From Protula sp. h YS-2021 (taxonomy: Eukaryota > Annelida > Polychaeta > Sabellida > Serpulidae), in assembly GCA_949752745.1 (NCBI GenBank), contig OX457033.1, positions 19,197,907 through 19,261,906 of the forward strand: a stretch of DNA of 64,000 nt, read 5' to 3'. This document shows, piece after piece, positions 5,499 through 59,957 of the stretch. The notes below the pieces were generated by a model. It was not told the origin of the DNA. It made no database searches and saw nothing but the letters and a program-made list of their open reading frames with translations. Both the position numbers and the translations under genes were made by a program. How positions within the stretch are numbered: position 1 is the first letter of the stretch; every line of letters begins with the position of its first letter.

Positions 5499-6616
5499 TC
5501 AGCTTTGAAGCGGGTTGCCTGAAACCAGAGTAGAAGGATTCGTAATGATGGTTTCCGCAGCAATGAAGGGGCCTAAAGAGTAAAGACCCGACAACTCGTT
5601 TTGCGAAAAGTCTTTCAGGTAATACTTAACAAATGAGTTGGGAGAGGACCAACAACCTGTTTTAAGTATATCTACCAAAGACACATTACGGAGAGCTCTG
5701 AGGGAATTTGCTATCTAGCGGACATGATGGGCTTTAACTTTACATTCGTTTTGTAGGCCCGTATCGGACTGTGCCCGTTCATAAGCTGCCAAAATGACCT
5801 TTTTAATGTAGTTTGAGATGGTCTGTTTAGAAAGGTCTTTGTTAAATTTCGGCATGAAAGAGATAATGAGGGCTTTTGATTTTCTGAGCGATAGGTTTCT
5901 GAAATCGAAAGATATTGACGTAGTGCTTTGACCGGGCACAAAGAAACACGATCCTCAGACAGTTGTTCCCCCTGAAGGGCCGGGAGCGCAATATGGTCAA
6001 AGGTGCCCCGGCCTTGGGAAATGATATGTGTCTTACCCATGAAACCGGCTCTGGGAGTAAGAAACACTCTATTCCACTCCCCATTTTCCTTCGTTATCTC
6101 CCTGTCCAACGCATGGATTTCGCCTCTCCTCTTACCGGACGCTAAGGCTAACAGGAAAGTGAATCTTACCGTGGCATCTTTTGCGGAAATGTTTTGTTCC
6201 GCGAAATTCTCTGGGCACTGTAAATAACGTAATACCAGAGACAAATCCCATTGGGCCACACTGGACTGTAGGGGAGGGGAATTCACCTTGAAATGTCTAA
6301 TTAACTGTGACAAGGCTGTATCCTCGCCCGGGTCATAGCCAGTAGATGCCTTAAGTCTAGAACCAATAGCGGCTCGATAACCTTCTATCGATCCCACCTT
6401 AAGTTGACCTTGTGTGAAAAGATGGTCCAAAAAATCTGCTACCACTGCTGGTGTCGCCTGGAAGGGGTCTAGCTTAGAGGCAGCGCACCAAGAGGAAAAC
6501 TTGTTCCACTGTGACCTATAAACTTTCGCTGTGGATTGTTTATGATTGTTTACCATCTTTTCCACTACCTGCTTGGAAAAACCTTTTTTCTCTAGGAAGG
6601 ATTGGTTAGGCACCAC
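5499..6616 (-). pseudogene. DIRS tyrosine recombinase, broken by a frameshift and a stop
   Basis: The main frame runs 6616-5711. It holds the N-terminal SAM-like helices and the first catalytic arginine in SGKRRGEIH. Near position 5880-5900 the reading continues in another frame, which carries the H-x-x-R motif (AHHVR) just before an in-frame TAG at about 5713-5715. The same frame resumes and gives a C-terminal part (5684-5499) with the likely nucleophile in SFVKYY. All the catalytic elements exist, but in pieces. There is no ATG at the listed start (GTG); translation probably follows RT, which ends at 6630. In DIRS elements this enzyme joins circular cDNA to the target in place of a DDE integrase. 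Confidence 0.85.
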
Positions 6617-6629
6617 AGGTGAAGGTTCA

Positions 6630-8747
6630 TTAGTTGTGGGGACGGGTGGAAGTGCCGCCAGGTATCGGGATGGATTTGATCACCTTGCACCGTAGAAGAA
6701 GGGTGAACCACGGAGCCTCTGGGGACAACGGGGCTATTAGTAACAGAGCTGGGGGTCTCAGTTCTATTATCCTTTGCAAGACTTGTAGCAGAATGGCCTG
6801 GGGAGGGAAGGCATAGAGTACTTCCTGCAGAGGCCATGGGCACTTTAACGCATCTACTGCCCAGGCTGCTTGATCCGGGCATGGGGATACGAACCTGGGT
6901 AGCTGGGTTGTCAACGCATTGGCGAATAGATCTAACGTCGGGGGGCCCCATGGGGATTCCCGTGTCACCCAACGGAAGGATGACTGGGCTAGGCACCACT
7001 CTGTGTGGATAACTTGGCCCGCCCTGGACGCCAGATCGGCCAGTACGTTTAGCTTCCCTGATAGATGACGTGCTACAATGGAGATTTTGCGTTCCCGTGC
7101 CAGAAGAAGGATGTGAGAAGTCAGGGTCGATAGTTGAGAGGATTTGGTTCCACCTTGCTTGTTCAGATACGCCACTGCTGTAGAGTTGTCCAGAAGAACT
7201 CTGACACTCTTGCCCTCGAGATGGTTCGATAGCTTGTTCAGAGCTATCCATACCACTCGGAGTTCCAGCCAGTTGATATGGTATCTGCAGAACGTTGCTG
7301 GCCATTTTCCTCGCCACATTTGACCCTGACAGTGAATTCCCCAGCCTTCCCTGGAAGCGTCCGTTTGGAGCTCTATATCCATGGGAGGGGCAAGAAAGGG
7401 GACTCCTTCGTTCATGGTAACCGGGTCGCACCACCATTGGAGAAGGGAGAGTGCGGAAGGGGACACTGTCATAGTGGCTTTGGGGGACCGTCCCTTCGTT
7501 AGGGCTTGTCTTACCTGTGCCTGGAATCGTCTGTAATGTAAGCGGCCTAACGGAACCGTCTTCTCGGTCGCTACTAACAGACCTAGCAGTGACTCCATAG
7601 CCTGTACCCTTACCTTTCGGTTGGCAGAAATGTTCCGGATAGACCGAGAAATTCTCTGCTGCCTGTCTGTTGTGGGGAATGCTCGGGCTGCTGATAAGTC
7701 CCATCGTTCCCCCAAGAAGATGACGTCTTGTTTTGGGGTCAATTCTGATTTGACCAGATTTACCACAAGACCTACCTGTATCGCCTTTTTGACTAGCTGG
7801 GTAGTCTGGTGATGGGCTATGTCCCGTTGAGTATGTGCTAGGAACCAATCGTCTAAGTATTGGAACACTAGCATTCCTTGGAGACGTGCCCATGCTTTTA
7901 GGACCCGCATGATCTTTGAAAATACGTACGGGGCTGACGAGAGGCCGAAAGGGAGTGCCAGAAACCAAAAACGCTTTCGATTTACTTGGAAACATAGGTA
8001 CTTCCTGGCCGAGTGGTGTAGGGGAACATGTAGGTAGGCGTCGGATAGATCTATCGATGTGCTCCACATCCCTTCCCGTAACATTGCTTTTATAACCTGT
8101 GCCGTGTCCATCTGGAAGGAGGTTATTTGCAGGGACTGGTTGAGGGAAGATAGATCTATCACTAGTCGCCATCCCCCTGACTTTTTGGGTACCAGAAAAA
8201 CTCGGCTGAAGAAGCCTACCTGGTTTTCTGGCATTTCCTCTATAGCTCGTTTTGCTTGCAAGTCTCTTAGCATTTCTTTTAGGGCTAAGTCTTTTTCTGA
8301 TCCCTGCTGATAAGCGGTGGCCAGGTTGCCTGGAGCTTGGAGTGTTAGGGGAATAGTTGGCTTGAGTCCCCTCGGGCCCTTCTTGAAGGGGAGGGGATAG
8401 CCGTTCCTGAGCCACCGGACTTTTCTCCGGGAAGCCCCTAACTCTGCCCAAGCATGCCAGAACTTGCCTAGCCTTCCGCCTACGGGCAAGGATGTGTTGC
8501 AAGACAGTAGTTCTTTTAGATCGTTTAAGCCAGAAAAAGTATCGCCAAGAGACGAGTCCCTCGTCTCTGAGCGGTACTTTGGTTGGCTGCTACCTGTGCT
8601 GCTGGGTGTGCTGACCCTCTGGCTTGCTGTCACCCGAATGCTTGGGCCTCTTCGGCGGTGGGGACTGCACCTGGGAGTTGGGTCGGGGGTGATCCGCAGA
8701 GGACTGTCGTTGTTTCTTGCGCTTCGCTGGTTGGCGGAACGAGGCAC
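6630..8747 (-). CDS. DIRS reverse transcriptase / RNase H
   Basis: An open frame of 705 codons. RT motifs include FSRVFLVPKKSGGWR (about 180-194), SIDLSDAYLHVPL (about 231-243), LPFGLSSAPYVF and the catalytic YLDD at 297-300. The RNase H domain follows, with TDAS (about 462), WLELR (about 493) and LLDNSTA (about 518) supplying acidic residues. The frame has no ATG before about residue 159. It overlaps the end of the gag frame (8590-8747), so it is probably made by frameshifting or re-initiation from gag. It should copy element RNA into cDNA. No stop interrupts it. Confidence 0.92.
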   Translation of the reverse strand: MPRSANQRSARNNDSPLRITPDPTPRCSPHRRRGPSIRVTASQRVSTPSSTGSSQPKYRSETRDSSLGDTFSGLNDLKELLSCNTSLPVGGRLGKFWHAWAELGASRRKVRWLRNGYPLPFKKGPRGLKPTIPLTLQAPGNLATAYQQGSEKDLALKEMLRDLQAKRAIEEMPENQVGFFSRVFLVPKKSGGWRLVIDLSSLNQSLQITSFQMDTAQVIKAMLREGMWSTSIDLSDAYLHVPLHHSARKYLCFQVNRKRFWFLALPFGLSSAPYVFSKIMRVLKAWARLQGMLVFQYLDDWFLAHTQRDIAHHQTTQLVKKAIQVGLVVNLVKSELTPKQDVIFLGERWDLSAARAFPTTDRQQRISRSIRNISANRKVRVQAMESLLGLLVATEKTVPLGRLHYRRFQAQVRQALTKGRSPKATMTVSPSALSLLQWWCDPVTMNEGVPFLAPPMDIELQTDASREGWGIHCQGQMWRGKWPATFCRYHINWLELRVVWIALNKLSNHLEGKSVRVLLDNSTAVAYLNKQGGTKSSQLSTLTSHILLLARERKISIVARHLSGKLNVLADLASRAGQVIHTEWCLAQSSFRWVTRESPWGPPTLDLFANALTTQLPRFVSPCPDQAAWAVDALKCPWPLQEVLYAFPPQAILLQVLQRIIELRPPALLLIAPLSPEAPWFTLLLRCKVIKSIPIPGGTSTRPHN

Positions 8748-9471
8748 GCGACATCCTTGACATCAAGGCGAAGTCTTGCGACAACGATCGGCTCTCTTGG
8801 TTTACTCTCTCCACCTCTGCTGGGGGGAACAGTTCTTTCTCGCCCAGGATAGGAGTATGTCTTAAATCACGAAGCCCTTTGACGCTTGACCAGCAGTGCT
8901 GGAGGAAGGCGTCCCGTCTTAAAAATACCATTGACGTCATTAGGAAGGTAGAGATTTTCACGACATCACGGGTGGCCAGAGACAGGCATTCCAAAAGCTT
9001 AGAAGACACTGGGTCATTGAGCCGCAGATTATCCCATCTCGCCCGTAGTGCTTTCAGAGTGTGGTCCTGAAAGGACATAATGTTTAAAACTTGACGGGCC
9101 GACGACTCAATGTTCCTGGCGTCTTTTTCTACTAACGGAATGTCTGAATCCGCACGAACTGATGGCATCCACACTGTTCTCTTGGATGGTTGATCCAGTG
9201 ACTCCATCGGTATCTGATCGTCCGAGGTACGGTATGGGCCGGGACGCACGGAGCAGTGCTTTGAGGCATGAAATCGCGATAATGTGCGGCCCTCACTGGC
9301 ATCCATCTTTTTGAACTCGTTTGACCGCACTATCACTGCGTTCGCGATGCCCTCACTCGTGGATAAGGCAATGAATGAATCGTGGTGGGGCAGAGACGTC
9401 TGGGATGTCATCCTAATGGGGGGGGGGGTCATCCCTTTCCAGACATGGGGTGCCACAGGTAACGTTAGCAA
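8590..9471 (-). pseudogene. DIRS gag, C-terminal fragment
   Basis: This frame is the last third of gag, ending in a basic and proline-rich tail (FRQPAKRKKQRQ, PPPKRPKHSG) typical of a nucleic-acid-binding Gag C-terminus. It has no ATG at its upstream end. It is separated from the preceding gag frame by a homopolymer of about 11 G (plus strand, 9419-9429), where the reading frame is lost. That makes a replication slip or an assembly error likely. It overlaps RT by 158 bases. Confidence 0.75.
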
Positions 9472-9534
9472 GGCGGGCTATTTCCTGTATGGCATCTCTA
9501 AACGGGACATCTTCCGGAGCTAGGGACGATGACG

Positions 9535-10536
9535 TCACGGAAGGAGCTCCCTCTTCCCCTGGAGATGAGAGATCGGGAGGAGACGGGGTCCTGATCGGGC
9601 GACGGCCTGCTGCCGCTGGGTCGTGCCATAGGCGTTGGTCGCGACCTGGGGAACGTACAGAGTCAATTTCCCGTAGGGTAAGTGGAAGTGAGTCGGTGCT
9701 GAGAGCTCTTGGGGCACATCTCCGGTCTCTTCCTCTTCGGACTCTTCCCCTTCCTGCTCCTCTTCACCCTGCCGCAGAACGTTCATGGGATGCTGGGTGA
9801 GTACTTCCCCCGAGGGTGTATAGATCTCCCTCTCTCTGTTAGAGGGAATAGATGTTATGGGAGAGGTGTGAGCTTGAAGTAGGTCGTCGTCCTCTTCTCC
9901 CACCAGATTGGAAGCCTGCCCCGACGGTGGAATACCCGAAGAGTCCTCCTCACTGGGGTCCTCCGACTCACGGTCCCTGACTGCACCCATGGCGGGGGGT
10001 TCGTGGGACGTGGACGCTAAGGGAAGTAATTCCGGTGGAGGCCGAGAGACCGTGGCCGATGGTGAACGCTTCCTGCTGGGGGTCCCTTTTGCCTCTTGCT
10101 CTTTAATTGAGCATTGCAAGTCCTGGATCTGGCGTTGAAGTTGAGTCCGTAAAGCCAGTATCGCCGACAAGCCCATTGAGTCACCCGTGGAGGGGGGCAA
10201 AGTTGGTGTATCTAGCTGGGGGAACAAATCCTCTGGTGCTGGTATGCCCAGTTGACCCGGAGTAGACGTGAAGGCAGAGCCTGTGGCGGTATGCACAACC
10301 GTTACTTGTCCTTCCGCAGGGTAAAGTTTTTTCTCGGATCCTGACCCTTCCTTCCCCGTATCCTGTCGGTCAGCGGACCAGGCGTTACGTAAGGCCGCGC
10401 GTTCGTCGCCGCCTAATATATCCAGTTCAGCCACTGTTTCTGAAAAGACTCTAGAGGTCTTTGACTTTTTACGCTTGCGCTTAGTGCCCGCTGTATCCGA
10501 CTCTGCAACGGTATCCAAACGGATGGGCGTCGACAC
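9535..10536 (-). pseudogene. DIRS gag, central fragment
   Basis: The frame encodes a low-complexity, charged Gag centre with KRKRKKSKTS near its start, an acidic stretch (EEEEQEGEESEEEETG-like) and many prolines and serines. It overlaps the N-terminal gag frame (10413-10835) by about 120 bases in a different phase, so the N-terminal and central parts of gag are also separated by a frameshift. There is no enzymatic motif. Confidence 0.7.
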
Positions 10537-10835
10537 CTGTGAAGGATCACTGAACTCGCCTTTTCCATTGAGCTGGAGGGTATAGTCCGGTGAGAGAAAC
10601 AGGAAGGGGCTTTGCGTCTGCTCCTTCTACGATCGTTCTTTGCCCTGTTTCTGTAAATTGCCCGCCACTCTCTGTGGGTTAACTGTTCACACTCCGGGCA
10701 GGTATTCGTTTCCACACACAACGCCAGGCCCCGATCTCGCCTGCAGCGATCGCACACTGTATGGGGATTGAGTAAGGTAGGCGGGTGTGAACACGGCAAC
10801 TCCTTCTTGTTTGACCGTAGGGTGGCCTCTGTCAT
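10413..10835 (-). pseudogene. DIRS gag, N-terminal zinc-finger fragment
   Basis: It begins at an ATG (10835). Its first 60 residues carry a zinc-binding cluster, C-x2-C (CDRCRRDRG) followed by C-x-ETNT-C-x2-C, then a basic helix (YRNRAKNDRRRSRRK). This resembles the N-termini of other DIRS gag proteins. The rest of the frame after about residue 65 is out-of-frame read-through, because the true continuation is in the 10536-9535 frame. Confidence 0.72.
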
Positions 10836-52373: not shown

Positions 52374-52379
52374 GTGGCT
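52374..52379. repeat. Target-site duplication GTGGCT, left
   Basis: A direct 6-bp copy of 59952-59957, immediately outside the element end AGTAGTGTAAAAG. Confidence 0.85.
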
Positions 52380-52684
52380 AGTAGTGTAAAAGTGGGGGTT
52401 TAAAAACAGGAAGTGACGTCATAATGACGTCAGGAGGTGTTTTGATAGCCCCATGGGGCTTTTAAAACAGTGACGTCATAATGACGTCACTGTGGGGAAA
52501 ACCCGATCGATAAATTTCAGAGTGCACTCGTACAGAGTATGGGGGAAAACCGATCGATAAATTTTAGAGTGCACTCGTTCAGAGCGTGGGAACGATCAAT
52601 AAATTTGAGAAGGAATGGGATTTTCAGCAGGATAAAAGTGTGGCTCCGAAAACAGGAAGTGACGTAAAAATGACGTCACGAGGT

Positions 52685-52714
52685 GTTTTCGGAGCCCCAT
52701 GGGGCTCCGAAAAC
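52685..52714. repeat. 30-bp perfect palindrome in the left arm
   Basis: The half-site is GTTTTCGGAGCCCCA, centred on CCATGG. The right arm has the same palindrome at about 59567-59600. A related CCCCATGGGG palindrome lies nearer each terminus. It could extrude as a cruciform or bind a dimeric protein. Confidence 0.85.
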
Positions 52715-52785
52715 AGTGACGTGATTGTTTTCGAATTCGCATGGGTATTTTGAGACAGGTAATCGAAAGAGCGCGCGCCCGTTCA

Positions 52786-53012
52786 ATGACGTCATGATGA
52801 CGTCACCATGACGTTATAATGACGTCATCATGATGACGTTATAATGACGTCATGATGACGTCATCATGACGTTATAATGACGTCATCATGATGATGTTGT
52901 AATGACGTCATCATGACGTTATCATGACGTTATCATGACGTCATTATCATGACGTTATAATGACGTCACCATGACGTTATCATGACGTTATCATGACGTT
53001 ATCATGATGTTA
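52786..53012. repeat. CRE array, left arm
   Basis: By eye there are nine TGACGTCA octamers (the palindromic CREB/ATF bZIP site) and nine TGACGTTA variants in 227 bases, spaced by ATCA, ATAA and similar. Confidence 0.9.
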
Positions 53013-53181
53013 TGGCATATTAAGACAGTCCTAAGCAGGATAACCCTAAGTGGCCTGTCAATCATCATGACGTCATTAGTCACGTGACCTGTCAATCATC
53101 ATTGGTTACATGACCTGTCAATCATGTGTGATGTGATTCCAACCGCATATGAGGAATATTTTCCTGCTCATCAACCTTCTG

Positions 53182-53266
53182 GCCTGAATGGCTCAGTTGG
53201 TAGAGCAGAGGACCCGTAAGCGGACCCATGATCTGAAGGTCGGTGGATCGAACCCGCCCTCGGGCA
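53182..53266 (+). tRNA. tRNA-like sequence A, left arm
   Basis: 85 nt. The acceptor ends pair (GCCTGAA with CTCGGGC). The D arm is GCTC-AGTTGGTA-GAGC with a perfect box A (TGGCTCAGTTGG). The T arm is GGTGG-ATCGAAC-CCGCC with a near-perfect box B. The anticodon arm is extended by about 12 nt and I cannot fold it canonically, so it is either intron-bearing or a tRNA-derived pol III unit. No anticodon is assigned. Confidence 0.6.
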
Positions 53267-53282
53267 TCACTTTCATATCATA

Positions 53283-53447
53283 GGTCCTCAATCTTAGAAG
53301 ACCCCCCCCATCCCCCCACCCCCCTGGGTCCTCAAACTTGGAAGACCCCCCCTGGGTCCTCAAACTTGGAAGACCCCCCCCCGGGTCCTCAGACTTGGAA
53401 GACCCCCCCTGGGTCCTCAAACTTGGAAGACCCCTCCCCCCCCCCAG
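53283..53447. repeat. GGGTCCTCAAACTTGGAAGA minisatellite, left arm
   Basis: About five units of 27-28 bp, each ending in a C run (ACCCCCCC). An inverted partner with fewer or shorter units is at 58864-58990. Confidence 0.88.
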
Positions 53448-53550
53448 GATGTGACTATGTAACATCATATAGCTATATGACTATTTAATTGCTATGTGAA
53501 CATAATTAGTCTAACGTATGTATGTCGTTATCAGATCGTTCAACAGTCAA

Positions 53551-53623
53551 GCCGCGATAGCTCACTTGGCAGAGCAAACGGCTAGCAACCTGAGAGTCCC
53601 GGGATCGATGCCACATCGAGGCA
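53551..53623 (+). tRNA. tRNA-like sequence B, left arm
   Basis: 73 nt, the canonical length. The acceptor is GCCGCGA with TCGAGGC (one mismatch) and the D arm is GCTC-ACTTGGCA-GAGC. The loop CTAGCAA would place AGC (Ala) at the anticodon. The anticodon and T stems are poorly paired, so it is likely degenerate or tRNA-derived rather than a decoding tRNA. Confidence 0.5.
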
Positions 53624-55019
53624 AACTTTTGTTTTTGGTTTTTTGTTCACTTTTATGACTCTGTGACATTATGTGACAACATGTGACTGTGACATCATGT
53701 GACTCTGTGACATTATGTGACTGTGACTGTTTTTTTTTCTTTTTTTTTTAACATAATGGCTATATTTCTATGTCTATTTTCACTATTATTATGATAATAT
53801 TTAATTAGTCATATTTCAATGGTTCTAACCACACAGCATAGGAATAAGTACATGTGTACAGAGTGTGGGGAAACCGATCAATAAATTTTAGAGTGCACTC
53901 GTTCAGAGTGTGGAGGAAACCGATCGATAAAATTTCAGAGTGCACTCGTTCAGACCGTGGGAACGATCGATAAATTTGAAAACATCAAAGGCCTAGACCG
54001 TGGGAACGATCGATAAATTTGAAAACATCAAAGGCCTAGACCGTGGGAACGATCAATAAATTTCAGAGTGCACTAATTCAGAGCGTGGGAACGATCAATA
54101 AATTTGAGAAGGAATGGGATTTTTCACAACTCTATGTTTTATGTTATAGTAGTTGGAAAATGACACTTCTAAAGCACATTTAACAAATGTAGGTTTTTAT
54201 AACATATAATATATAAAATAAGTTTGAACATTTTAGCATGCTACTTATTTAAATGTTCTAAAGTTATAGTAGTGGAAAAATGGTGGTTCTAGACCAACTT
54301 TAACAAATTTAGTTATTAACACCATATGATATATAAAATAAGTTTGAACATTTTAGCATGCTACTTATTTGAATATTCTAAAGTCATAGTAGTGGAAAAA
54401 TGATGGTTCTAGACCAACTTTAACAAATTTTGTTTTTTGACAAAATATGATGTATAAAATAAGTTTGAACATTTTACCATGGTGTAGTAGGGTAAAAATA
54501 AGGGTTCTAGACCAACTTTAGCAAATTTAGTTTTTAACACCATATGATATATAAAATAAGTTTGAACATTTTAGCATGCTACTTATTTGAATATTCTAAA
54601 GTCATAGTAGTGGAAAAATGATGGTTCTAGACCAACTTTAACAAATTTTGTTTTTTGACAAAATATGATGTATAAAATAAGTTTGAACATTTTACCATGG
54701 TGTAGTTAGGTCAAAATCAGGGTTCTAAACCAACTTTAGCAAATTTAGTTTTTTACACGTTTCAGACGATTCTACCACTTGGTTGGTTGGTTGATTGTTG
54801 GAAAATGGGAAGTGAAAGTGTGGATAGTTATGTAGGAAAACTGCGCCCATTCAAAAGACGTGTTCGAATGGCAAGCCCATTTTAAAGACGTGTTCGAATG
54901 GCAAGCCCATTTTAAAGACGTGTTCGAATGGCAAGCCCATTTTAAAGACGTGTTCGAATGGCAAGCCCATTCAAAACACGTGTTCGAATAATTTTTGAAA
55001 GATATTACGTCGTGGTATT

Positions 55020-55161
55020 GTTCAACAAATTGTTCAACATGTTCAACACGTTCAACATGTTCAACATGTTCAACAAGTTCAACATGTTCAACATGTTCAA
55101 CAAGTTGTTCAACATGTTCAACATGTTGTTGTTCAACATGTTGTTCAACATGTTCAACATG
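55020..55161. repeat. GTTCAACAT 9-bp array, left arm
   Basis: About 15 units of GTTCAACAT with some shortened, directly upstream of the TATA box of the zinc-finger gene. Each junction makes the palindrome AACATGTT. Confidence 0.92.
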
Positions 55162-55169
55162 TATATAAA
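55162..55169 (+). promoter_or_regulatory. TATA box of the zinc-finger gene
   Basis: TATATAAA lies 54 bases before the ATG and just after the 9-bp array. In the right arm the same place reads TATATAGA on the minus strand. Confidence 0.65.
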
Positions 55170-55222
55170 GCTATGTTTAAAGACTTTCTCATCATTTGAA
55201 TAGTGTAGGTTGAACCGAAAGG

Positions 55223-55960
55223 ATGTATACATGCAACATTTGTTCGAAATCTTACAATTGGCCGCAAAGTCTTAAAAGACACTTAAAGGTTGCTCACGCT
55301 TCAGAAGTGGATGAAGAATCGGATATGGAAAACCCTGTAAAACTACCTTTCACGGAAACTTTAGATGAGTCTTCTATGGAAAGTCAAAGCGTCAACATAG
55401 CTGAAAAGAATGCACATGCTTGTACAGAATGTGGTGCATTGTACAACAGCGAAGAAGCTTTGCTCAAACATATGGAGCAGTGTGGTGAGGATGCTGATGA
55501 CAGGAGTTCTGAAAGTGAGTCAGAAACAGACTCTGAAAGTGAGTCAGAAATAGACTCTGTTTGGCATGATATGGTTCAAGACGTCTACGATGACTATGAT
55601 AACATATTTCAAGAAAAGGTTTCAGAATATGAAGAACAAGGACTTGAAGATGCGCGTGAAATAGCAAGTTATGACCTTCGACCCATTTATAAGCATGGAC
55701 TAAAACAACTGTTTATGAGACTGTTCAACTATACCCAGCGTCTACAACAAAGCAAACATTATCAAAAGATTTTAGAGGACTTTAATTACTTTGTTGATGA
55801 AAAACATTATAAGTATTCAAAGGCATTAATGGCGGCTATAAGGAAAAACAATGCATTCTTTGAAGAGCTACTAGATATGGAGGAGGAGGAGGAGGATGGT
55901 AGCAGTGACAACAAAAGTGGCATGGACAGTGAACAGAGTGAAACAGATGCAGAAAAATAG
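55223..55960 (+). CDS. Acidic two-finger C2H2-like protein of the element (245 aa)
   Basis: Finger 1 has C4-x2-C7 and H20-x4-H25 (YTCNICSKSYNWPQSLKRH). Finger 2 has C67-x2-C70, H83-x3-C87, a C2HC variant. Residues 91-112 are an SE/SD-rich acidic run. Residues 120-220 form a helical region with RPIYKHGLKQLFMRLFNYTQ and FFEELLDMEEEEED. The C-terminus is acidic again. It looks like a DNA-binding regulator with an acidic activation-type tail. A role in controlling the element or its helper is inference. The first 13 or so codons lie inside the terminal repeat, so finger 1 is split by the arm boundary. It is a single exon, with AATAAA 20 bases after the stop. I do not recognise an orthologue. Confidence 0.85.
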   Translation: MYTCNICSKSYNWPQSLKRHLKVAHASEVDEESDMENPVKLPFTETLDESSMESQSVNIAEKNAHACTECGALYNSEEALLKHMEQCGEDADDRSSESESETDSESESEIDSVWHDMVQDVYDDYDNIFQEKVSEYEEQGLEDAREIASYDLRPIYKHGLKQLFMRLFNYTQRLQQSKHYQKILEDFNYFVDEKHYKYSKALMAAIRKNNAFFEELLDMEEEEEDGSSDNKSGMDSEQSETDAEK

Positions 55961-55981
55961 ACTTATTTGACTAAACTTTAT

Positions 55982-55987
55982 AATAAA
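55982..55987 (+). terminator. Poly(A) signal of the zinc-finger gene
   Basis: AATAAA 22 bases after the stop codon. A second AATAAA follows near 56263. Confidence 0.6.
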
Positions 55988-56109
55988 GACTTTATAAATG
56001 TTGTAATATTTTATTAACTTAAGCGTTGTGTAATATATGTCTTGCTTTGCAACATATAAAGTCGTAAGGTTCCTGACACGGTTTTAATTGACCCGTAAAC
56101 CATATATCA

Positions 56110-56250
56110 TATATTGGGTATTATAGTTAATTTTGTATTATTATGTATTATATTCAAGAATTGTATTATTACGTATTATATTCAAGTATTGTTTTATTAT
56201 GTATTATATCCAAGTATTGTTTTATGATGTATTATATCGAAGTATTGTAT
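56110..56250. repeat. Short tandem repeat between the convergent genes
   Basis: About four units of roughly 35 bp built on TATTATGTATTATATTCAAG and GTATTG, in the shared 3' region. Confidence 0.75.
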
Positions 56251-56286
56251 GAGAAAAATAAAAAGTTGAAAAGCATCATATGTGTT

Positions 56287-56292
56287 TTTATT
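56287..56292 (-). terminator. Poly(A) signal of the PC4-like gene
   Basis: TTTATT on the plus strand is AATAAA on the minus strand, about 320 bases after the stop. The two transcripts would overlap tail to tail only slightly or not at all. Confidence 0.45.
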
Positions 56293-56609
56293 GAACATTA
56301 CAAATATGTACAATTATGATAAAAACAAAACTATTTCAAATACATATTATGTTAATACATGTGCAGAAGAACTTAACTTAAAATTTTATAACAACTGACT
56401 TCACATGAACATAGATAAAGTTAATTTCATAGTCTACATATGAAGACAATTTAATTTGAACTACATATCAAATGTACATGTCCATATGAGTCAAAGCTAA
56501 GTTCTTGTCAAGCTTCAAAACCGTCGGTCCAATCTTCTGCACTGTGATGAAATCACAGCATCCACTAAGCTCGTCATGCTGTTAAAACTGTATACAGTCA
56601 TCTCGCTGT

Positions 56610-57152
56610 CTACTCAACCATCTTCTGACAGTCACTGCATTTATACAGATCCATTTTCTGAAGCATGAGATCCACTGACGTCATTTGCTTCTTCAACATG
56701 TGCCAGTCTTTCAATGACAACAAAATTCCCTTCTTGGTAGGATATAATCTCCCAGATGCATGATTCGTAATATATTTACGAATGTTAACCATCACTTTCT
56801 GTTGATAATTCACCAATTTAATATATGTTTCTCCATTAATGGGTATCATAACCGGTGAATCGTCTACACGCATCTTCTTCATAGTGGTATGAGCTTTACG
56901 CTCCGGTTCTCGCTTCACATTAGGCTCTGTCGTATTTTTTCGCATTTTACACGGCGGCGTCATAGCTGGTAACTCATCTCTTTTTATCTTTCTAAGATGT
57001 GGTCGCTTTTGACGCTGCTGACGTGACTTCGCCTTAGACTTTACCATGGGCATTGCCTTAGACTTTGCTGTAGGTATTGTCTCAGGCTTTGCTATAAAAT
57101 TTTCTGCAGGCATTGCCATAGATGGTAGTTGTTGTTCACTCACTGCAGACAT
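56610..57152 (-). CDS. PC4/SUB1-like single-strand-DNA-binding protein of the element (180 aa)
   Basis: From the ATG at 57152, the first 105 residues are basic and repetitive (AKSKAMPMVKSKAKS, RQQRQKRPHLRKIKRDE), as expected for a nuclear-targeted, DNA-contacting tail. Residues about 105-168 match the PC4 C-terminal fold: GETYIKLVNYQQKVMVNIRK (two strands), a linker, YPTKKGILLSLKDWHMLKKQ (the conserved KGI.L....W..LK block) and a final helix. PC4 proteins bind melted DNA and act in transcription and replication. The tail ends with YKCSDCQ, a CxxC absent from ordinary PC4. It is a single exon, convergent with the zinc-finger gene. The assignment is by motif only. Confidence 0.82.
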   Translation of the reverse strand: MSAVSEQQLPSMAMPAENFIAKPETIPTAKSKAMPMVKSKAKSRQQRQKRPHLRKIKRDELPAMTPPCKMRKNTTEPNVKREPERKAHTTMKKMRVDDSPVMIPINGETYIKLVNYQQKVMVNIRKYITNHASGRLYPTKKGILLSLKDWHMLKKQMTSVDLMLQKMDLYKCSDCQKMVE

Positions 57153-57204
57153 GTTCACTCTTCAGTATCTTGATACAGAATGTGCGTTATGTCTGAGGGT
57201 AGGT

Positions 57205-57213
57205 ACCTTTTAT
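57205..57213 (-). promoter_or_regulatory. Possible TATA box of the PC4-like gene
   Basis: The minus strand reads GCATAAAAGG about 55 bases before the ATG. A transcript could alternatively start at the duplicated promoter in the right arm. Confidence 0.5.
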
Positions 57214-57279
57214 GCTCTATAGGGAGCTGCCACACTCGAGGTTGGACACACTATGTCCTAAAATGTTTAGAAATAATTT

Positions 57280-57333
57280 TACCATATGCGACTCTGCAGC
57301 CAATTGTAAGATTTCGAACAAATGTTGCATGTA
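57280..57333 (-). pseudogene. Truncated second start of the zinc-finger gene
   Basis: The right-arm copy begins with the same ATG and residues MYTCNICSKSYNW, then diverges (LQSRIW) into a stop. It could be a short upstream ORF for the PC4-like gene, or its 5' exon if the adjacent ATG|GTAAAA is used as a donor. Confidence 0.7.
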
Positions 57334-57401
57334 TACATCCTTTCGGTTCAACCTACACTATTCAAATGATGAGAAAGTCTTTAAACATAGCTCTATATAC
57401 A

Positions 57402-57658
57402 ACTTGTTGAACATGTTGAACAACATGTTGAACAACAACATGTTGAACATGTTGAACAACTTGATGAACATGTTGAACAAGTTGAACATGTTGAACTTGT
57501 TGAACTTGTTGAACATGTTGAACATGTTGAACATGTTGAACATGTTGAACTTGTTGAACATGTTGAACAACTTGTTGAACATGTTGAACATGTTGAACTT
57601 GTTGAACACGTTGAACATGTTGAACGTGTTGAACATGTTGAACAATTTGTTGAACAAT
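57402..57658. repeat. GTTGAACAT 9-bp array, right arm
   Basis: The inverted and longer counterpart (about 27 units), with GTTGAACTT variants. The long Asn/Leu/Met, Phe/Asn and Ser/Thr/Cys frames across it are repeat artefacts. Confidence 0.92.
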
Positions 57659-58686
57659 ACCACGACGTAATATCTTTCAAAAATTATTCGAACACGTGTT
57701 TTGAATGGGCTTGCCATTCGAACACGTCTTTAAAATGGGCTTGCCATTCGAACACGTCTTTAAAATGGGCTTGCCATTCGAACACGTCTTTTGAATGGGC
57801 GCAGTTTTCCTACATAACTATCCACATTTTCACTTCCCATTTTCCAACAATCAACCAACCAACCAAGTGGTAGAATCGTCTGAAACGTGTAAAAAACTAA
57901 ATTTGTTAAAGTTGGTTTAGAACCCTGATTTTGACCTTACTACACCATGGTAAAATGTTCAAACTTATTTTATACATCATATTTTGTCAAAAAACAAAAT
58001 TTGTTAAAGTTGGTCTAGAACCACCATTTTTCCACTACTATGACTTTAGAACATTTAAATAAGTAGCATGCTAAAATGTTCAAACTTATTTTATATATTA
58101 TATGTTATAAAAACCTACATTTGTTAAATGTGCTTTAGAAGTGTCATTTTCCAACTACTATAACATAAAACATAGAGTTGTGAAAAATCCCATTCCTTCT
58201 CAAATTTATTGATCGTTCCCACGCTCTGAATTAGTGCACTCTGAAATTTATTGATCGTTCCCACGGTCTAGGCCTTTGATGTTTTCAAATTTATCGATCG
58301 TTCCCACGGTCTAGGCCTTTGATGTTTTCAAATTTATCGATCGTTCCCACGGTCTGAACGAGTGCACTCTGAAATTTTATCGATCGGTTTCCTCCACACT
58401 CTGAACGAGTGCACTCTAAAATTTATTGATCGGTTTCCCCACACTCTGTACACATGTACTTATTCCTATGCTGTGTGGTTAGAACCATTGAAATATGACT
58501 AATTAAATATTATCATAATAATAGTGAAAATAGACATAGAAATATAGCCATTATGTTAAAAAAAAAAAGAAAAAAAAAAACAGTCACAGTCACATAATGT
58601 CACAGAGTCACATGATGTCACAGTCACATGTTGTCACATAATGTCACAGAGTCATAAAAGTGAACAAAAAACCAAAAAAAAAAGTT

Positions 58687-58759
58687 TGCCTCGATGTGGC
58701 ATCGATCCCGGGACTCATAGGTTGCTAGCCGTTTGCTCTGCCAAGTGAGCTATCGCGGC
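58687..58759 (-). tRNA. tRNA-like sequence B, right arm
   Basis: The inverted copy of 53551-53623. It differs in the anticodon-stem/variable region (CCTATGAG against CCTGAGAG). Confidence 0.5.
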
Positions 58760-58863
58760 TAACTGTTGAACGATCTGATAACGACATACATACGTTAGAC
58801 TAATTATGTTCACATAGCAATTAAATAGTCATATAGCTGTATGATGTTACATAGTCACATCCT

Positions 58864-58990
58864 GGTGGGGGGGGGGGGTCTTCCAAGTCTGAGGACCCGG
58901 GGGGGGTCTTCCAAGTTTGAGGGCCCAGGGGGGGTCTTCCAAGTTTGAGGACCCAGGGGAGGGGTGGGGGGGTGGGGGGGGTCTTCTAAG
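58864..58990. repeat. Inverted minisatellite partner, right arm
   Basis: Complement of the 53283-53447 units with G runs of up to nine or ten. Confidence 0.88.
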
Positions 58991-59016
58991 ATTGAGGACC
59001 TATGATATGAAAGTGA

Positions 59017-59101
59017 TGCCCGAGGGCGGGTTCGATCCACCGACCTTCAGATCATGGGTCCGCTTACGGGTCCTCTGCTCTACCAACTGAGCCATTCAGG
59101 C
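59017..59101 (-). tRNA. tRNA-like sequence A, right arm
   Basis: The inverted copy of 53182-53266, apparently unchanged through the box A and box B segments. Confidence 0.6.
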
Positions 59102-59271
59102 CAGAAGGTTGATGAGCAGGAAAATATTCCTCATATGCGGTTGGAATCACATCACACATGATTGACAGGTCATGTAACCAATGATGATTGACAGGTCACG
59201 TGACTAATGACGTCATGATGATTGACAGGCCACTTAGGGTTATCCTGCTTAGGACTGTCTTAATATGCCAT

Positions 59272-59497
59272 AACATCATGATGACGACATGATAACGTCA
59301 TGATAACGTCATGGTGACGTCATTATAACGTCATGATAATGACGTCATGATAACGTCATGATAACGTCATGATGACGTCATTACAACATCATCATGATGA
59401 CGTCATTATAACGTCATGATGACGTCATCATGACGTCATTATAACGTCATCATGATGACGTCATTATAACGTCATGGTGACATCATCATGACGTCAT
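59272..59497. repeat. CRE array, right arm
   Basis: The inverted counterpart of the left array, with the same alternation of TGACGTCA and TAACGTCA. Confidence 0.9.
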
Positions 59498-59951
59498 TGA
59501 ACGGGCGCGCGCTCTTTCGATTACCTGTCTCAAAATACCCATGCGAATTCGAAAACAATCACGTCACTGTTTTCGGAGCCCCATGGGGCTCCGAAAACAC
59601 CTCGTGACGTCATTTTGACGTCACTTCCTGTTTTCGGAGCCACACTTTTATCCTGCTGAAAATCCCATTCCTTCTCAAATTTATTGATCGTTCCCACGCT
59701 CTGAACGAGTGCACTCTAAAATTTATCGATCGGTTTTCCCCCACACTCTGTACGAGTGCACTCTGAAATTTATCGATCGGGTTTTCCCCCACACTCTGTA
59801 CGAGTGCACTCTGAAATTTATCGATCGGGTTTTCCCCACAGTGACGTCATTATGACGTCACTGTTTTAAAAGCCCCATGGGGCTATCAAAACACCTCCTG
59901 ACGTCATTATGACGTCACTTCCTGTTTTTAAACCCCCACTTTTACACTACT

Positions 59952-59957
59952 GTGGCT
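59952..59957. repeat. Target-site duplication GTGGCT, right
   Basis: A direct copy of 52374-52379. Downstream, GCAGCAGCATTTGC resumes the interrupted repeat R1. Confidence 0.85.

Follow-up and report, generated by a model that had tools for sequence, protein, structure and literature searches.

A high-copy element with Polinton-type ends and two genes of its own as a candidate Polinton satellite in the annelid Protula sp.

How does an element spread that has the ends of a Polinton and no recognizable gene for replication, integration or the capsid? This question is raised by a 64,000-nucleotide stretch of the genome of the serpulid annelid Protula sp. h YS-2021 (assembly GCA_949752745.1, contig OX457033.1, positions 19,197,907–19,261,906; in the following the window), which contains an element of 7572 bp. 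An earlier reading of this DNA from its letters (the sequence-only reading) had delimited the element by AG...CT inverted ends, a 6-bp duplication (GTGGCT) and arms of 2.7–2.9 kb, all of which could be confirmed, with arms of 2.89 and 2.66 kb (Table 1). Polintons (Mavericks) are thought to be transposon and virus at once, and they as well as non-autonomous DNA transposons are known kinds of element.

We consider it likely that this high-copy element is copied and inserted by the polymerase and integrase of Polintons residing in the same genome, since its ends and some stretches of its arms are also found in them and it has no recognizable core genes of its own. It does contain a zinc-finger gene and a PC4 gene, whose products are predicted to act in transcription or replication. 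The best reading appears to be a helper-dependent Polinton satellite with genes of its own, for which we infer the movement in trans and the roles of both proteins.

Copies, open reading frames and matched ends

The element of the window contains two convergent open reading frames (ORFs) of 245 and 180 amino acids (aa), both of which are intact, as the sequence-only reading had held. The domain of the PC4 protein aligns with PC4 chains of solved structure (E 3.3e-6 to 5.8e-6). Fold searches with a model of the zinc-finger protein (pLDDT, the predicted local distance difference test, 71.9) gave nothing at E<=0.001, the best matches being zinc fingers, and its predicted helical domain had no structural match at the same threshold. 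In a Pfam scan of the element proteins no catalytic domain was found.

The 863-Mb assembly (218 contigs) was searched for further copies. Each search scored the best candidates only (40, 89, 111 or 150), and the counts are therefore lower bounds biased to intact copies, which overstates the intact fraction. With one arm end as query, the best 40 of 2,350 candidates were scored, and 147 aligned pieces were obtained altogether. The PC4 protein of the window (type I) gave 150 full-length matches at 97–100% (best 150 of 6,727), 141 of them without a stop, and the zinc-finger protein gave matches at 97–100%, 143 without a stop, among the best 150 of 6,372; these two lists comprise at least 213 distinct places, 87 of which are common to both. 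A second PC4 query of 188 aa, taken from another short element (L040; L-numbers denote individual genome sites fetched for comparison with the window element), retrieved types II and III, with 35 matches at 96–100% and 115 at 89–93% among the best 150 of 6,816, and 136 of the 150 had no stop. The two PC4 lists have no match in common and comprise at least 291 separate PC4 places (places closer than 10 kb merged). The PC4 types differ by 10–19%, and their ORFs are still mostly open. At the 18 other sites fetched first, the zinc-finger gene is full-length in 13 (10 without a stop) and the PC4 gene in 14 (13 without a stop); 12 sites hold both genes full-length and four more hold parts of both or part of one. 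Site L020 has a partial PC4 gene and no zinc-finger gene, and at L026 neither gene lies within the stretch read. Other copies do exist, and both genes, mostly with open ORFs, recur across several subfamilies.

Both ends were read in 16 elements, namely the window copy, L040 and 14 of the 18 first-fetched sites; L019, L025 and L026, where the stretch read showed a single end, and L023, whose right end was misplaced, were left out of these counts. Fifteen of the elements are uninterrupted and 4.4–9.7 kb long, and the sixteenth surrounds another element in a nested locus (see below). AG...CT ends are present in all 16 and a perfect 6-bp duplication in 15, whereas at L011 five of the six bases agree. 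Because both ends could be read in so many elements, 15 of them with perfect duplications, the element of the window is not an assembly artefact. Instead of missing copies, decayed ORFs or a palindromic artefact, we found many copies, open ORFs and duplications at these 16 elements.

The first 60 bases vary between copies (15 variable columns in 15 elements, on average 6.27 differences), yet the two tips of one copy are identical in 13 of the 15 elements and differ by a single base in the other two (14 of 16 identical when L040 is included). Not one of 20,000 permutations gave an equally extreme match within copies. Over 420 bases the mean divergence is 2.25% within elements compared with 6.44% between them. 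Since the tips vary between copies and nevertheless match within a copy, each mobilization probably rewrites one end from the other, as would be expected of protein-primed copying in which the ends anneal. The same process would fit the observation, made by eye, that the right arm extends beyond the start codon of the zinc-finger gene and contains its first codons as a fragment. The matched but variable tips represent sequence evidence for a joint rewriting of both ends.

In addition, the first 100 bases of the element (52380–52479) recur 246 bases inwards (52626–52725) with 82% identity, possibly as a reserve template from which the variable tip could be restored. When the window copy is compared with L040, the zinc finger is 97% identical and PC4 only 81%, which suggests an exchange of parts between subfamilies. 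L040 had been retrieved among zinc-finger matches without a PC4 neighbour, which were considered as an autonomous form; on checking, it is a short element with the second PC4 type, and the idea was given up. Site L046 (1–1839) is a near-perfect palindrome, 98.3% identical to its own reverse complement over 1.8 kb, with two open divergent PC4 genes, and close inverted PC4 pairs are also found at C3:25469343/25470106 (one with a stop) and C6:8504672/8505395.

Polintons of the same genome as candidate helpers

With the integrase of one Polinton family (family A) as query at least 111 matches were scored, and the best 111 comprise 47 at 98–100% (family A), 57 at 69–70% (family B), five at 68% (family C) and two at 82–86% (others). 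Stops occur in 6 of the 47 family A and in 2 of the 57 family B integrases. Judging from these identities and the few stops, several Polinton families have been amplified recently.

In family A the integrase (PF00665), its chromodomain (PF00385) and PC4 score above the Pfam cut-offs and the protease and the capsid give weak matches (E 0.036–0.037), whereas the 1,396-aa ORF called PolB and the piece of the ATPase have no Pfam match. The C-terminal chromodomain on the integrase, a feature of adintoviruses, is thus present in family A, the family scanned for it. Two family B proteins score above the cut-off, namely PC4 (E 2.4e-9) and the ATPase (Adeno_IVa2, E 5.3e-8; Pox_A32, 3.9e-5); the protease is just below it (E 3.2e-4), and the capsid and PolB are without a match. 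Pfam scans of the PolB ORFs of both families reported neither an OTU-like domain, which in adintoviruses is N-terminal on PolB, nor any PolB domain. These ORFs are 60% identical to each other, presumably carry PolB motifs, and resemble the exonuclease part of a PF03175 protein of this genome (E 8e-6; hhalign probability 79.7); PF03175 itself has 84 matches above the cut-off elsewhere in the genome, and the loci of families A and B that were read contain none. Because there is no library match and the assignment draws on the presumed motifs and on the likeness to the exonuclease, both ORFs are likely, though not proven, to be PolB. They also contain a stretch resembling recombination endonuclease VII (L038:2137–5847 and L017:2267–6457; PHROG 423, E 4e-6 and 9e-5; below the cut-off in Pfam), and the family A PolB has a finger which is faintly similar to the zinc-finger family of the short elements (E 0.008).

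The proteins of both families were used as tblastn queries against 15 short elements. PC4 set aside, these were eleven (from family A the integrase, PolB, the protease, the capsid, a piece of the ATPase and RING; from family B PolB, the protease, the capsid, the minor capsid and the ATPase, the integrase of family B being excluded), none of which gave a match at E<=1e-3. For the retrovirus-type integrase no match was seen even at E<=1 with the family A query. Three residual PolB matches of 21–22 residues are found in the window copy (E 0.016–0.27); the best one aligns PolB's own finger with the second zinc finger and the other two lie within the arms. Within the scope of these queries, the claim that every Polinton core gene is missing was borne out, which supports the view of a non-autonomous element.

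Family B is the nearest candidate for a helper that was found. A family B copy of 17,051 bp (C2:45802591–45819641) has identical tips and a duplication of its own (GCTGTC), and its tip agrees best with that of the short element L015: among the first 15 bases 14 are the same, and among 50 bases 40. In the left arm, 1,720 of the 2,892 bases are covered by matches to family B pieces, mostly with 80–92% identity. The main arm blocks (arm positions 689–902, 1072–1598 and 1671–2378) keep their order from the tip inwards in the family B copy L036, and the block 112–246 matches a repeat deeper inside the same copy. Thus, of the expected full element with the same terminal bases, related ends were found in family B, but the agreement is at best the one given above. 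The PC4 protein of the satellite is 39.5% identical over 86 aa to that of family B (E 6.6e-17), the nearest of the Polinton PC4 proteins compared, and 32% identical to that of family A (E 4e-16). In family B the PC4 gene is located directly after PolB. Because families A and B each contain such a gene, we regard PC4 as a Polinton accessory gene in this genome. The tips of family B appear mosaic-like when L032 and L035 are compared with L036 and L037: after base 25 one copy has the satellite-like ACAGGAAGTGACGTCAT and two differ.

A single search with the zinc-finger protein gave one relative, and a two-row profile gave 24 at E<1e-36, which are 31–38% identical and, if complete, share its layout. 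In P0025, a weaker relative (E 3.3e-5), the terminal part of a Polinton-type ATPase (34% identity to family A, 40% to family B) comes first and is followed by the second finger and the helical domain (hhalign probability 96.3). As P0025 joins these parts, the zinc-finger gene probably derives from a Polinton-type virus. Scans of viral contigs revealed no relative, and neither did a protein search with PC4.

In family A a histone-type 3′ untranslated region stem–loop (RF00032, 37.4 bits; cut-off 34) is located at L016:9146–9191, 19 bases past a RING-like ORF. Due to this position the 3′ end of the RING-like mRNA may resemble that of replication-dependent histone mRNAs. No such stem–loop was detected in L017, L033, L034, L038 and L039; six are reported for a collection of Polinton-like viruses and virophages (PMC12220804).

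Selection on the two genes and rival explanations

Are the two genes maintained by the element? The changes were evaluated by simple Fisher counts and by a simulation with the transition ratio of the spacer (88 to 81), whose milder P values we prefer; the pairwise tests share branches and hence are not independent. For the zinc finger, simple counts gave ratios of nonsynonymous to synonymous changes (pN/pS) of 0.28–0.34 against L044 (p 3e-6 to 3e-4) and of 0.31 for the window copy against L013 (p 0.005). In the simulation, protein changes reach 0.39–0.47 of the neutral ratio in four of five pairs (P 0.009–0.043). For PC4, pN/pS is 0.66–0.92 between the window copy and other subfamilies, and of 18 pairs that include type III copies, simple counts reach significance in four, as they do when L013 is compared with L040 (p 0.048). 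Counted over the copies, the zinc-finger gene has 3 synonymous and 9 nonsynonymous shared changes and 21 and 49 single ones; the numbers for PC4 are 6.5 and 26.5 shared and 28 and 67 single. These data point to a modest constraint on the zinc finger, and constraint on PC4 is not shown.

Several observations weigh against a satellite that maintains its genes with the help of a family-B-like Polinton. The fifth zinc-finger pair, the window copy against L040, lies at 1.06 of the neutral ratio in the simulation, and PC4 reaches significance in one of six pairs (P 0.0485) and fails in five. Coding and spacer divergence are about equal (49 changes in ~729 coding sites, 6.7%, for the window copy against L044, compared with 6.8% in the spacer), and the shared changes are no more constrained than singletons, contrary to what selection on active lineages would produce. 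The presumed helper polymerase is without a polymerase match in Pfam, NCBIfam, PHROGs or the PDB, and neither a zinc-finger gene nor a relative of it occurs in the family B pieces read. Since the family B tip is only 80% like the best tip of a short element, the current helper may be another family. Moreover, two elements, L027 (63 differences of 415) and L028 (29 of 333), are outliers with arms that diverge strongly beyond the tip. Of the suggestion that the element maintains both genes, their presence across several subfamilies and the modest deficit in the zinc finger remain, whereas five of the six simulated PC4 pairs and the pattern of shared changes do not support it.

One explanation for these observations is a common non-autonomous derivative of a Polinton in which both genes are passengers without a role, and in which the youth of the copies is the main reason for the open ORFs. 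The identity of 97–100% of the listed copies within a type would fit, as would the PC4 ratios and the equal behavior of coding and spacer and of shared and single changes. Passengers would hardly have mostly open PC4 ORFs at 10–19% distance, a zinc finger depleted in protein changes in four of five pairs, and both genes full-length at two thirds of the first-fetched sites, and we regard this explanation as unlikely. A new autonomous transposon, with the zinc-finger or PC4 protein itself transposing or replicating, seems highly improbable: two conserved genes, own subfamilies, the high copy number and a helical domain without structural match would speak for it, but no catalytic domain is found in Pfam, and the resident Polintons are indicated by the ends, the length of the duplication, the arms and PC4 alike. 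Hardly credible at all is the view that the short element represents one end of a longer, complete element. It was suggested by a 27-kb locus with the same ends and core genes between them. This locus turned out to be nested: a family A Polinton of ~19 kb lies inside the right arm of a short element and has its own tips (AGTAGTGGGAAAATACGGG; one of them at L016:6653) and its own duplication (GTTTTC), which refutes the explanation at this locus.

For the helper-dependent satellite that we prefer, the following mode of replication is conceivable. A family-B-like helper would supply a protein-primed polymerase starting at the AGTAG tips, one end would serve as template for the other, and linear copies with matched ends would result; such templating would account for the matched tips, the equal arms and the arm grown into the zinc-finger gene. 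The helper integrase would insert the product and make the 6-bp duplication. The zinc-finger protein might bind the arrays of the arms (TGACGTCA, TGTTCAACA) or promoters. Cellular PC4 binds single-stranded or promoter DNA, and the PC4 protein of the element may bind single-stranded intermediates or promoter DNA in favor of the satellite. A more far-reaching version, which we put forward tentatively as a possibility, is a regulator-carrying satellite that has shed all enzymes, borrows the polymerase, the integrase and perhaps the capsid of the helper, has its tips rewritten in each round, and uses the zinc finger and PC4 to turn transcription or replication at the shared arms to its advantage; it would be a eukaryotic counterpart of phage satellites. 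The sequence-only reading had thought of a satellite of a Polinton or adintovirus-like helper; Polinton-type ends, complete Polintons with related ends and PC4 genes in families A and B agree with it, whereas we still infer the helper-driven movement and the action of the proteins.

In comparison to known systems the short element resembles Polintons and adintoviruses in its AG...CT ends, the 6-bp duplication and the long inverted repeats with tandem arrays, and Polintons in the PC4 gene (families A and B) and in the arm stretches common with family B. It differs from Polintons as it has no recognizable gene for PolB, integrase, protease, ATPase or the capsid, is 4.4–9.7 kb long (15 uninterrupted copies) instead of ~17–19 kb, and has the zinc-finger gene, for which the family B pieces read showed no counterpart. 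Non-autonomous DNA transposons (deletion derivatives, miniature inverted-repeat transposable elements) would likewise be mobilized in trans by the enzymes of a full element; unlike these, the short element keeps two protein genes across subfamilies, one of them with signs of selection. Repeat libraries presumably hold non-autonomous Polintons as well. With virophages, phage P4 and phage-inducible chromosomal islands it would share the helper-dependent replication and own regulatory genes, but it has no capsid gene, and its packaging or an effect on the helper would be hypothetical.

Some adintoviruses encode zinc-finger regulators termed Ziftr (PMC11071296), and the zinc-finger gene can be likened by description to the Ziftr of adintoviruses and adomaviruses as a regulator gene in Polinton-type viruses; a term search in this article gave no PC4, satellite, defective or non-autonomous form. 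No gene-carrying Polinton satellite was recognized in the literature searched (open-licence PubMed Central). Young Polintons together with hundreds of satellites would be a natural system for end recognition and tip-started copying, and the same genome lets one ask whether the satellite taxes or tames its helper.

Features of the window element

Table 1. Features of the element and their positions in the window.
Feature	Position	Strand	Remarks
Whole element	52380–59951		7,572 bp; AG...CT ends, both starting AGTAGTGTAAAAGTGGGGG
Target-site duplication, left	52374–52379	.	GTGGCT
Target-site duplication, right	59952–59957	.	GTGGCT
Left arm (terminal inverted repeat)	52380–55271	+	2,892 bp; starts AGTAGTGTAAAAGTGG
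Right arm (terminal inverted repeat)	57290–59951	-	2,662 bp
TGACGTCA-rich array, left arm	52785–53013	+	~11-bp period
TGACGTCA-rich array, right arm	59274–59498	-	counterpart of the left-arm array
tRNA-like gene, left arm	53182–53266	+	RF00005, 31.7 bits; gathering score 29
tRNA-like gene, right arm	59017–59101	-	
9-bp array, upstream of the zinc-finger gene	55019–55162	+	unit TGTTCAACA
TATA-like site ahead of the zinc-finger ORF	55162–55169	+	TATATAAA; by eye
Zinc-finger (C2H2) ORF	55223–55960	+	245 aa; CCHH and CCHC fingers, acidic linker, predicted helical domain
AATAAA downstream of the zinc-finger ORF	55982–55987	+	by eye
AATAAA downstream of the PC4 ORF	56287–56292	-	by eye
PC4 ORF	56610–57152	-	180 aa; PF02229, E 3.7e-10, above cut-off
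TATA-like site ahead of the PC4 ORF	57206–57215	-	GCATAAAAGG; by eye
Fragment with first codons of the zinc-finger gene, inside the right arm	57279–57338	-	read by eye
9-bp array, outer side of the PC4 gene	57401–57644	-	unit TGTTCAACA

When aligned from the tip inwards, the two arms are nearly identical apart from gaps in repeat number, and they differ chiefly in the copy number of units of 47, 218, 30 and 9 bp. The motif TGACGTCA, which we take to be a palindrome similar to the cAMP response element (CRE), occurs 31 times in the whole element, whereas 200 mononucleotide shuffles contain it 0.12 times on average. MicroRNA matches in the element stay below the gathering scores and lie mostly within repeat arrays.

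For the tRNA-like gene of the window ARAGORN reports none. Besides the window copy, it is above the Rfam cut-off in six of nine short elements and two of five family B end pieces scanned; it is thus found in the arms of many satellites and in some family B copies, for example at L036:559–644 and L037:399–484. Outside the element, minus-strand ORFs at 5711–10626 of the window look by eye like a candidate DIRS-type retroelement with reverse transcriptase and tyrosine recombinase.

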